The notes beneath the pieces are model-generated. The model was given only the letters and a program-made list of their open reading frames with translations. It was not told where the DNA came from and searched no databases. Shown here piece by piece: positions 17,970 through 46,646 of a stretch of DNA of 64,000 nucleotides. The position numbers and the translations under genes are program-made. Position 1 is the first letter of the stretch. The number at the start of each line of letters is the position of its first letter. The stretch is from NCBI GenBank assembly GCA_013822735.1, contig PNKZ01000010.1, forward strand, positions 124,001-188,000, read 5' to 3'. The stretch is from Pirellula sp. Lineage in GTDB: Bacteria > Planctomycetota > Planctomycetia > Pirellulales > PNKZ01.

Positions 17970-18283
17970 ACAAACGAGAGCACGTCGACCGACGCCTTAT
18001 AAACGGCACTGCACCCTTACAAAAAGCAAATTTCAAACTGACTGCCGACCCGCCGTCTTCATCCCCCACATCCCCTTCTCATCCCCCTATCTCCCTTTCT
18101 TCTCTGGAAGCCCTTCGACAAAAGAAAGCGTGATGGAGTTGCCGCTACGGCACACGGAGCGTGCCTGCAACTTGGGGTACCTAGTCGGTCTGCCGGCGAT
18201 GGTGTATTCTGCTCGACGCGCTCCGGACGCGACGTTCGGGCCTGTTTTTCCTATCGCTTCTCACTTCGTTGGACCCTGCGAAT
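17970..18283. other. Intergenic region with a solo GGGAGAT-type repeat arm
   Basis: About 314 bp without a supported gene between the accessory ORFs and the PGK-like gene. It contains the polypyrimidine repeat arm listed separately, and its 3' part (about 18130-18283) should hold the promoter of the PGK-like gene. An overlapping frame that crosses into the PGK-like gene is Arg/Pro/His-rich and not gene-like. Confidence 0.55.
18054..18098. repeat. Solo arm of the GGGAGAT intergenic repeat family
   Basis: Read on the minus strand it begins GAAAGGGAGATAGGGGGATG and ends GGGGGATGAAGAC. It matches the right arm of the GxxExxY cassette (35705-35755), which also carries GTGGGGATGAAGAC at the same distance, and the right arm at 46621. 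No opposing arm is seen nearby. Confidence 0.7.
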
Positions 18284-34485: not shown

Positions 34486-35223
34486 TTACGGCACGTTGTG
34501 AAAGACGAACTGCATTAAGTTCTTCGTGCCGATCGTGCCGACGGTCGAAAGAATCTCGCCGGCTTGGAAGCCCGCCGCTTGTCCGTAATGCTCGGCCAGG
34601 GCACGCACGCGCGAAAACACATGCGATTTCGCCGGCGGAAATTGTGTGGCGTAGCAACGGATGCTGTCGAGCTTCTGCTCCAACGTCTCCGTAATATCCA
34701 CCACGACGTGCCCTGCCCCGGGCGGCAATTCCAGCGAGCTGAAGTTGAGCGTGTAGTACATGAGCGACGGCACCGTGTGCACCGGCAGACCTTCGAAGTG
34801 CTCGTCCCATTTAGTGAGCCGCGAGTAAAACACGGCCCCTTCGGTAATCATCATCGCCTGATGATGATCAGGGGACGCCAGCGGCGTCTTCTCACCGAAG
34901 CCGATGATGAGCCGCGGCCGATACTTGCGAAACTGTTTCGCCAGCGCCGTGCGGGCTTCAAACGAGTCGAACAAGCGCCGGTTCGGCAGATCGAGCTGCA
35001 CGCGCACGTGTACGCCGAGCTTCTCCGCAGCGGCCCGAGCTTCGGCGGCGCGCACCTCAGGCCCCGGCGAAAGCGGCGTCGGCTCGCCGTCGGTCAGGTC
35101 GATGATGCCGACCTTGAAGCCTTGCTTCACGAGCGAAGCCAAAGTCCCGCCGCAAGCAATCTCCACATCATCCGGATGCGCTCCGACGGCAATGACGTCG
35201 AGCTTCAAATCATCATCGGCCAT
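34486..35223 (-). CDS. PIG-L family deacetylase
   Basis: A 245-residue cytoplasmic zinc hydrolase of the LmbE/PIG-L family, which remove acetyl groups from N-acetylglucosaminyl compounds. The metal-binding motif is [14 protein letters not shown] (residues 13-26) with SPDHHQAMM near 128-136 as the second motif. Such enzymes include BshB1 of bacillithiol synthesis, and similar architecture occurs in sugar deacetylation; the substrate cannot be decided here. The ATG at 35223 begins the protein cleanly; the longer frame only runs into the upstream repeat. Confidence 0.88.
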
Positions 35224-35244
35224 GGTCTGCTGTCCTGATTTCCG

Positions 35245-35755
35245 GCAAGGGAGATGTGGGGATAGGGGGAGATAGGGGAAGTAAGAAAGCACGGTGGAAG
35301 GAGTAGCTACTTGCGCTGCGGAACGACGACGCGGCGGAAGTCTGCTTTCTCATTGGCGAAGTTGATCAACAAACCAACTTCAAGTTTCGCAGCGTGCAGA
35401 TAAGACTTCAACTGAGCGTAGTGCGCCTTGCTCAGCTGCTCGACGACTTTCAGTTCTAAGATTATCTGGCCCTCGACCACGAGATCGAGTCGATGCACGC
35501 CGACATTAACACCCTGATATAGAATGTCGACGACCTTTTCGCATTCAAACGCCAAACCAGTGTTTGCGAAATCGACAAGCAACGCCTTCTGATAGATTGA
35601 CTCGTTAGACCCAGGTCCCAATTCACGGTGGACGCGAATCACGCTCTCAATAATTCTGCGGCTGATCTCATCGTCAAAACCCGAATCCACCCCCGTTCCC
35701 TCCTTTATCTTGTCTTCATCCCCACGATCTCCTCCTATCCCCTCATCTCCCTTGC
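35245..35755. mobile_element. Cassette: GxxExxY gene between inverted GGGAGAT repeats
   Basis: A 511-bp unit. The left end begins GCAAGGGAGATGTGGGGATA at 35245; the right end, read on the minus strand from 35755, begins GCAAGGGAGATGAGGGGATA. The first 29 bases of the two arms match at 27 positions, and the arms are inverted. The single gene inside is the GxxExxY protein. The arms belong to a family also present at 18054-18098 and 46497-46621. No transposase is encoded, and no target-site duplication was identified by eye, so mobility is inference. Confidence 0.6.
35307..35690 (-). CDS. GxxExxY protein
   Basis: A 127-residue protein with the motif GPGSNESIY (GSNESIY fits GxxExxY) about residue 25-35, and the block [44 protein letters not shown], which matches the PDDEXK_3-like GxxExxY family (Asp, then ELK, as in nuclease active sites). 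The starting codon is a GTG at 35690. Family members are found in several copies in some genomes, and their function is not established. Here it is the only gene within an inverted-repeat-bounded cassette. A nuclease-like role is inferred from the fold only. Confidence 0.85.
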
Positions 35756-35776: not shown

Positions 35777-37039
35777 TTATGAAGCCGGCTTCACGACCGA
35801 GAGGACGAACGTCGGGTTAAGTGCGTCGAAGCGGATGCGTTCGAGTTGGTGGGTGCCGCGGGCTACGTTAAGCATCCAGATGTTGGCATGGCCGGCTTTG
35901 CGCTGCAGCGTAGCTTGGAGTTCCGCGAGGTTTTCAATGCTGCCGGTGTTGGCCACGAGCCGGCCGCCCGGCTTCAGGCGTTCGTAGGCCAGGTCGACCA
36001 AGCGACCGATCTCGCGACCGAGGCCGCCGACGAACACCGCGTCGGGGTCGGGCAGACCGGTCCATGCTTCGGGCGCTTGGCCGAGCACCGGTTGCAAGTT
36101 GCGCACGCCGAAGCGTTCGGCATTAGAAACAATGAGGCCATGATCGGCCGGGTCCATTTCAATGGCATAGGTCGTGCCGCCCGAGGCAATCTTGGCGGCT
36201 TCGATCGCCACGGAGCCGCTTCCCGCGCCGATGTCCCACACGACGCTGCGTGGCCCCAGGTCCATTTCGGCCAAGGCCCACGTGCGTGCTTCGGCCGGCG
36301 TAAGCAACCCTTTCTTCGGCTTGGCTTGTTGAAACATCTCGTCGGGGTTGCCGAAGAGCCGTTGACCGATCGTTTCCACGGGCCGGTCCGGCACGTTCGG
36401 CTTGCGAATCAAAATCATGACGTTCAACGGACCAAACTCTTCGGCGGCGATCTCTTTCAGCTCGCCCTGCGTCACGCACTCATCCGGCGAGCCGAGGTTC
36501 TCACAGACATACGCCGTGAAATAGTCGATGCCGCGGTCGAGCAGCGCCTTGGCCACGCCGGCCGGCGAGTGTTGCTCGCTGGTGAACATGCCGACCTTTT
36601 CGGCCGAACGGATGCGCTCAATCGCATGTTCCAGCGTATGGCTCGCCAGATTGGTGAGATACGCTTCTTCCCAGTTCTCCTTAACGCGAGCGAACGCGAG
36701 TTGCATGCTGCTCACGTGCGGCACCACGTCGAAACGATTCTTGCCAAGCTTTTCGCAGAGGAAGCGCGAGATGCCGTAGAAAAGCGGATCGCCGGAAACA
36801 AGTACCACGGCGGTGCCCGACGCGTGCGCCGCCAAGCGCGCGACGACCGGTTCCAAGTTGGCCCCCAGCACGACGCGCTCGGCCGGCGACTTGGGAATGA
36901 GCCCGAGGGTATGGTCGCTGCCGACTAACAGCGAAGCGGAGGTAATCAGTCCCCGGGCGGCCGCGGTGATGCCGTCAAGGCCGTCGTCGCCGATGCCGAT
37001 GATGTAAATTCTGCCGCCCGCCTGCGAATCAATAGCCAC
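35777..37039 (-). CDS. cobL: Precorrin-6Y C5,15-methyltransferase (CbiE-CbiT fusion)
   Basis: A 420-residue cytoplasmic enzyme of cobalamin synthesis. Residues about 1-205 are a tetrapyrrole methylase domain (IYIIGIGDDGLDGITAAARGL, VLVSGDPLFYGISRFL); residues about 225-420 are the CbiT methyltransferase/decarboxylase domain with SAM motif VVWDIGAGSGSVAIEAA. Fusion of both halves is CobL. It uses a GTG start at 37039 with AGGA a few bases upstream. No other cob genes are in the window, so the pathway is scattered or incomplete locally. No cobalamin riboswitch was seen in the 260 bp upstream. Confidence 0.93.
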   Translation of the reverse strand: MAIDSQAGGRIYIIGIGDDGLDGITAAARGLITSASLLVGSDHTLGLIPKSPAERVVLGANLEPVVARLAAHASGTAVVLVSGDPLFYGISRFLCEKLGKNRFDVVPHVSSMQLAFARVKENWEEAYLTNLASHTLEHAIERIRSAEKVGMFTSEQHSPAGVAKALLDRGIDYFTAYVCENLGSPDECVTQGELKEIAAEEFGPLNVMILIRKPNVPDRPVETIGQRLFGNPDEMFQQAKPKKGLLTPAEARTWALAEMDLGPRSVVWDIGAGSGSVAIEAAKIASGGTTYAIEMDPADHGLIVSNAERFGVRNLQPVLGQAPEAWTGLPDPDAVFVGGLGREIGRLVDLAYERLKPGGRLVANTGSIENLAELQATLQRKAGHANIWMLNVARGTHQLERIRFDALNPTFVLSVVKPAS

Positions 37040-46462: not shown

Positions 46463-46496
46463 ATCTCGACTGCCACGCTGCTCCGACCTCTTTTCA

Positions 46497-46621
46497 GCAA
46501 GGGAGATATGGAGATGATGGGAGATACGGGAGATTAGAGAATTGAATGAACGGCTTCAGGCCCTTCCGTCTTTCTCACTTCTTATCTCCAATATCTCCTC
46601 CTATCCCCACATCTCCCTTTC
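46497..46621. repeat. Gene-less inverted GGGAGAT element
   Basis: Left arm starts GCAAGGGAGATATGGAGATG at 46497; right arm read on the minus strand from 46621 starts GAAAGGGAGATGTGGGGATAGG. Arms are inverted about a 40-50-bp centre. Right arm and the left arm at 35245 share GGGAGATGTGGGGATAGG and a later GAAAG...CGG end. Total 125 bp, lying between the pentaheme gene and the RlmM-like gene. Confidence 0.75.
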
Positions 46622-46646
46622 TTCCTCTCCGAAACGCTAGACGCCA

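Follow-up and report, generated by a model that had tools for sequence, protein, structure and literature searches.

GxxExxY genes within inverted repeat arms: a candidate kind of small mobile DNA in Pirellula sp. and many other bacteria

The placement of a single small gene between two inverted repeats raises the question of whether such ends belong to the gene, i.e., whether gene and repeats form a unit, or whether they came to lie together by chance. It is posed here by a 511-bp cassette at 35245-35755 of a 64,000-nt stretch of Pirellula sp. DNA (the window; contig PNKZ01000010.1, positions 124,001 to 188,000). The left arm (35245..35278, plus strand) is made of GGGAGAT-type units with the purine-rich strand directed inward, and the right arm (35722..35755, minus strand) is its inverted copy; the two are 34 nt each, lie 443 nt apart and are 88% complementary, with 27 of the outermost 29 nt (93%) matching. 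Between them lies a GxxExxY gene (35307..35690, minus strand) with a GTG start, encoding a protein of 127 aa with a PD-(D/E)XK fold. The preliminary description had reported two inverted purine-rich arms exactly around one such gene, and this was borne out both for the outer bases and over the full 34 nt. The element is flanked on the left by a PIG-L-type deacetylase gene (34486..35235, minus strand) and on the right by a tetrapyrrole methylase gene of the cbiET type (35777..37039, minus strand), whose gene name we take to be cbiET; both lie outside the element. The gene content, e.g., a DUF7133 + cytochrome c protein, suggests a planctomycete as the host. A profile search of the 6.88-Mb, 38-contig genome gave one TIGR04256 match, the gene inside the cassette.

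The cassette ORF was matched by TIGR04256 GxxExxY (127 bits, cut-off 35) and by PF13366 PDDEXK_3 (124.4 bits, cut-off 22), and in 66 aligned homologues the PD-(D/E)XK residues D69, K81 and Q93 were invariant and E79 was conserved at 90% or more. The structure model of the protein had a mean pLDDT of 93.5, and its best fold match was 4ic1, SSO0001, which we take to be a Cas4, with 102 residues aligned (VIA Z 9.9; Foldseek E 1.0e-4). Next in the Foldseek ranking came lambda-type exonucleases and MGME1. For the Holliday junction resolvase Hjc, Z was 7.0, a level that may reflect just the common arrangement. A sequence search of the PDB gave a best E of 0.71, and PADLOC and PHROGs gave weak matches alone (best E 0.0011 and 0.0032, respectively). 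The substitution ratios (pN 0.25-0.30, pS 0.70-0.94) indicate that the protein is under purifying selection.

The arms are by no means confined to the cassette. The pattern GGGAGATNNGGNGA had 27 exact matches in the window's genome vs 1 for the reversed pattern, and BLAST with the cassette arm returned 24 matches, the query counted in. Within the window the same family is represented outside the cassette by a gene-less arm pair at about 46495-46622 and by a solo arm at about 18058-18098 (minus strand). Many of the matching loci, when read by eye, were convergent pairs with short non-coding interiors, and since the interiors of the gene-less pairs appeared, again by eye, to be mutually unrelated, the majority of copies do not give the impression of having been duplicated recently. 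The genome also holds 24 arms of a different type, ACCACRGAG, though its sole GxxExxY gene has GGGAGAT-type arms.

The generality of the pairing was examined with a bracket test, in which the upstream flank of a gene was locally aligned with the reverse complement of the downstream flank and a score of at least 28 was taken as a pass. A GxxExxY match was present in 103 of 196 genomes of the order, and 92 of the 102 genes tested passed (3 further loci were dropped because of short flanks), compared with 8 of 167 control ORFs from the surroundings of such genes (20 regions, the longest being 14 kb). In a second set drawn from named genomes of many phyla, 64 of 76 genes among the best 80 loci were bracketed (4 were dropped), and the passing loci included two from Methanosarcinales MAGs (L168, L198). 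The typical passing arm consists of three units of 7-8 nt, spaced about 8-10 nt apart, e.g., CACAGAG or CGCAAAG; inverted repeats of another make also passed in a few cases (e.g., L217, L225 and L233), and at several loci under the threshold weaker arms were still recognisable. The best internal period was 8-10 in 271 of 302 GxxExxY arms, and the upstream arm was purine-rich on the coding strand for 140 of 151 genes, the purine-rich strand pointing inward at both ends and the units standing in direct repeat. Among the first-found arms, no more than 14 of 30 had an inverted partner at threshold. The pairing of arms and gene is not a local oddity; it recurs across many bacterial phyla.

In four genomes (L104, L106, L113 and L114), two GxxExxY cassettes were found about 1.7 kb apart (6.2 kb in L106), and the arm types differed between the two cassettes of one locus.

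The relation between a cassette and the arms dispersed around its genome was followed genome by genome. One site, between the cbiET and PIG-L genes, holds a cassette in three species of the genus (G000, G004 and G005); these cassettes are orthologous, their proteins are 54-63% identical and their arms have diverged. The arms of the three were joined, together with a heptamer stretch from a fourth genome, G006, which is without GxxExxY, into one query. Matches to the G000, G004 and G005 arms and the heptamer numbered, in this order, at least 26, 4, 0 and 6 in G000, at least 6, 24, 0 and 0 in G004, at least 1, 2, 12 and 0 in G005, and at least 0, 0, 0 and 46 in G006. A second query, made of the arms of other cassettes (among them those of G002 and G003 and the second cassette of G004), matched the arm of the own cassette in 54 of 54 cases in G002, 69 of 69 in G003 and 18 of 18 in G004; G005 had 2 stray matches, whereas G000, G001 and G006 had none. 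These counts too are to be read as at least, as in some genomes 40 first-look candidates were scored. Convergent pairs accounted for 40 of the 54 arms in G002, 60 of 69 in G003 and 6 of 18 in G004, and within 700 bp of an arm, none of the three families had neighbours in direct or in divergent orientation. The gene-less pairs measured 130-271 bp in G002, 110-231 bp in G003, and 81 and 209 bp in G004, and each family had a single pair of cassette size (537, 511 and 501 bp, respectively), which in every case contains a GxxExxY gene. Every cassette tested thus has a private arm sequence, gene-less copies of which are spread through its own genome and in relatives are rare or were not found.

This pattern bears on how the dispersed arms are to be judged. 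It had been proposed beforehand that, if most arms lay away from GxxExxY genes, their association with the gene would be due to chance; most arms are indeed gene-less, yet the rule fails because the gene-less arms match those of the resident cassette, and relatives with another cassette have other arms. That the gene comes with its own repeat ends, as had been supposed, was confirmed in a wider form, since the arms form a repeat family that extends through the genome and is linked to the gene. The further suggestion of a minimal mobile unit needs to be divided: the gene-bearing cassette looks stationary, being found at one site in three species, and dispersal is confined to the short pairs that have no gene. 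At the corresponding site in G006 (L150) and G003 (L153), where there is no cassette, there are stretches of 7-nt repeats, GGGGTCA-like and GTTGCTA-like; as these resemble the arms of a second class described below (TIGR02436), the spot seems to attract such elements.

The association was also followed at the level of whole genomes, by searching the 196 genomes of the order for the arm pattern ACCACRGAG-N1-3-CRCRRAG-N1-3-CRCRRAG. Such arms were found in 67 genomes, of which 62 had a GxxExxY match, vs 41 of the 129 genomes without them (Fisher p 1.9e-17), and the observed 62 exceeded all of 5000 within-family permutations (mean 52.3, maximum 59). The five genomes that have the arms and are without a GxxExxY match include two that carry 16-20 arms. 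Four-helix-bundle genes were present in 59 of the 67 genomes, a weaker association than that of GxxExxY (within-family p 0.014). When the type of arm unit was mapped onto a tree of 150 GxxExxY proteins, 18 changes were required vs a shuffled mean of 52.6 (minimum 45), a contrast inflated by related genomes in a tree built on few alignment columns. With the multi-phylum loci alone, the signal was weak (10 changes vs 13.0 shuffled, 1 of 200 shuffles being as low), and the A/G state of the units gave no signal on the protein tree of these loci (56 of 200 shuffles).

Considered together, the fixed polarity, the repeated units, the private arm families and the nuclease fold are what one would expect of a protein that recognises units in both arms and makes cuts or nicks in them, and we infer that the GxxExxY protein binds, cuts or moves the arms. 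The cassette probably belongs, in our estimation, to a family of small inverted-repeat elements in which it is the one with the gene, and its protein would move or copy arm pairs in trans. The molecular events might then be as follows. GxxExxY, a minimal PD-(D/E)XK nuclease of the Cas4/lambda-exonuclease type, would recognise the repeated units of both arms and would cut or nick at them, and arm pairs would be copied or moved in trans. The gene-bearing cassette itself would remain stationary by descent and serve as the resident source of the enzyme, like RAYT genes for REPINs, whereas the movement of arm pairs would leave no target duplication and would often place elements within each other. 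Several of the observations tell against this model: the genomes with ACCACRGAG arms and no GxxExxY match, the 24 such arms in the window's genome, the link of these arms to four-helix-bundle genes, the unrelated interiors of the gene-less pairs, the first-found arms that had no partner at threshold, and the weak tree signal across phyla.

Traces of such movement were sought in and around the gene-less pairs. G003 has two oppositely oriented copies of a 172-bp gene-less element, 3.3 kb apart and 87% identical over 190 columns; the likeness stops flush with one arm, runs on for about 16 nt beyond the other, and the flanks are otherwise unrelated. This shows that an arm pair was copied as a unit, although, with the copies merely 3.3 kb apart, it could have been by local inverted duplication. 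A search for target-site duplications of 2-9 nt gave no signal in 90 ACC-type pairs, whose flanks are old and for which a recent empty site was lacking. At three sites where G000 has a gene-less pair, G004 or G005 has an element too, in each case with the arms of the own genome and with unrelated interiors, so that simple copying and insertion would not suffice without either intergenic hot spots or a concerted change of arms; either of these may account for the three sites. Gene-less pairs often contain a second inverted pair: of 31 intervals, 12 exceeded the 99th percentile of shuffles (L300 being counted twice), and one particular inner inverted type lies inside 11 of 20 short elements of G003. 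In G004 (L345), an element with arms like those of the second cassette is nested in an element with the arms of the first, as judged by eye against L051.

Several further loci were recorded in the course of this work. Pairs nested in pairs of a different arm type were seen at L300-L314, L345, L372-L391 and L009. In G057, three arm pairs of 420-707 bp (L297, L298 and L299) enclose ORFs other than GxxExxY, which are either cargo or ordinary genes with two independent elements around them. No GxxExxY remnants were seen by eye in the gene-less interiors that were read. A GxxExxY copy with an internal deletion (L106:2199-2409), from which two HMM pieces are left and the middle is gone, is a possible intermediate between a cassette and a gene-less pair. 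An origin from phages or plasmids was rejected: with one query protein (tblastn, E <= 1e-5), none of 50,697 phage records and 8 of 72,556 plasmid records gave a match.

GxxExxY is not the only gene family that is found in such a setting. TIGR02436 genes, which encode a four-helix bundle, lay in inverted arms in 26 of 28 cases (2 were dropped as short) and, in a further set, in 18 of 20, giving 44 of 48 at a score of at least 28 (L267-L296 and L347-L366). The period of these arms is 7 (51 of 52 arms; 33 of 36 in the further set). The window's genome has five TIGR02436 genes, and the two that were examined were both bracketed, one of them at the threshold score of 28. TIGR02436 is thus a second gene-repeat system, parallel to that of GxxExxY.

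The existence of the second system has to be weighed in favor of an explanation in which some other host or mobile enzyme mobilises or homogenises the arms, with GxxExxY lying between them as cargo or as a regulator of the host. As an unrelated family occurs in arms of the same general layout, periodic inverted arms could arise from some process of the host that is common to both; arm pairs without a GxxExxY match in 5 of 67 genomes, and the three pairs of cassette size or longer that lack the gene in G057, point in the same direction. Against this explanation, which we regard as unlikely, the arm sequence follows the resident GxxExxY cassette in each genome, the arm type follows the protein tree, and the periods of the two systems differ, i.e., 7 for TIGR02436 and 8-10 for GxxExxY.

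A process akin to that of homing endonucleases appears decidedly improbable. Here the arm pairs would be the cleavage targets of GxxExxY, and the cassette would spread by break repair into such pairs on sister chromosomes, which would agree with the nuclease fold, with the gene-less pairs that share the cassette's arm type and genome, with the fixed convergent polarity, and with the presence or absence of the gene at one site within the genus; however, each of three families has a single pair that holds the gene, though 2 to 29 others could receive it. Pairing of the arms in the transcript, with a role in processing or regulation rather than mobility, would suit long inverted arms around a small ORF and the family of the parallel elements, which we take to be the four-helix-bundle family of 23S rRNA intervening sequences, but it is very doubtful and was rejected, as 321 transition-type arm differences from 151 GxxExxY genes were divided into 160 that G-U pairing would tolerate in the sense RNA and 161 that it would not, leaving no trace of selection for RNA pairing. 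Equal unit spacing in the two arms (100% and 94% vs 50% and 39%) had been considered as a sign of pairing and was dropped, since it is mostly an effect of the genome (18 of 20 within elements vs 48 of 58 between elements of a single genome).

The reading of the cassette as the resident source of a trans-acting nuclease invites comparison with known systems, of which REPIN/RAYT is the nearest in layout. As described in the excerpts available of PMC3116915, one stationary gene has repeat ends that recur as short dispersed inverted doublets, the ends are private to each gene, and elements lie in or beside each other. The enzymes are different, RAYT being a Y1 (HUH) tyrosine transposase and GxxExxY a PD-(D/E)XK nuclease with matches to PF13366 and TIGR04256 alone, and so are the ends: REP is a hairpin palindrome, whereas the ends of GxxExxY cassettes are triplets of direct repeats on either side of the gene, and four of four single arms, when folded as DNA, were no more stable than their shuffles (minimum energies of 0 to -1.8 kcal/mol). 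The organisation therefore resembles that of REPIN/RAYT, while the enzyme and the ends fall outside it. The 23S rRNA intervening sequences, as far as they are covered in the available part of PMC4990558, are likewise a few hundred bp long with inverted ends and one small ORF; that ORF is of the S23/four-helix-bundle type rather than GxxExxY, and the cassette lies outside rRNA, between the PIG-L-type and tetrapyrrole methylase genes; the arm differences of GxxExxY genes show no RNA-pairing bias. MITEs of DDE insertion sequences are also short, gene-less, inverted-repeat elements dispersed through genomes, and may be set apart by the missing signal of target-site duplication in the 90 pairs with old flanks. 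The likeness to Cas4/RecB-like nucleases lies in the fold, via SSO0001; GxxExxY is a stand-alone protein, and there were no CRISPR genes among the neighbours that were read.

A closer match to the arms themselves is offered by intergenic repeats of short units. G-rich heptamer repeats of Xanthomonas and Nostoc are intergenic, and 70 and 75 convergent pairs are given for two Xanthomonas genomes in the available portion of PMC4692102. These and the TAACTGA repeats (excerpts of PMC4679880) share with the arms their short direct-repeat units and intergenic position, and their period of 7 is that of TIGR02436 arms rather than the 8-10 of GxxExxY arms; the accessible parts of both papers name no associated gene. 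In the open-access papers searched, no link of GxxExxY or TIGR02436 to such arms was found, and the mentions of GxxExxY in the extracts that could be viewed did not concern repeats.

The recurrence of the gene-arm pairing across phyla suggests small mobile DNA of a kind that has yet to be described. A bolder view, which we put forward tentatively, is that GxxExxY cassettes found a mobile DNA class of their own in many bacterial phyla and some archaeal MAGs, in which a stand-alone Cas4-like nuclease would spread short arm pairs in trans by way of unit triplets, without target duplication, that TIGR02436 proteins would run a second, independent class of period 7, and that a large part of the dispersed repeats between bacterial genes that still lack an explanation might be due to the two. 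Short dispersed repeats fill the intergenic DNA of many bacteria, and two classes of them are here tied to two tiny gene families. The link to a gene provides a candidate enzyme for each class, so that origin and function become testable, and for GxxExxY proteins the link to the arms offers a first specific hypothesis. If the nuclease does spread the arms, this would be a route of transposition without a known transposase.
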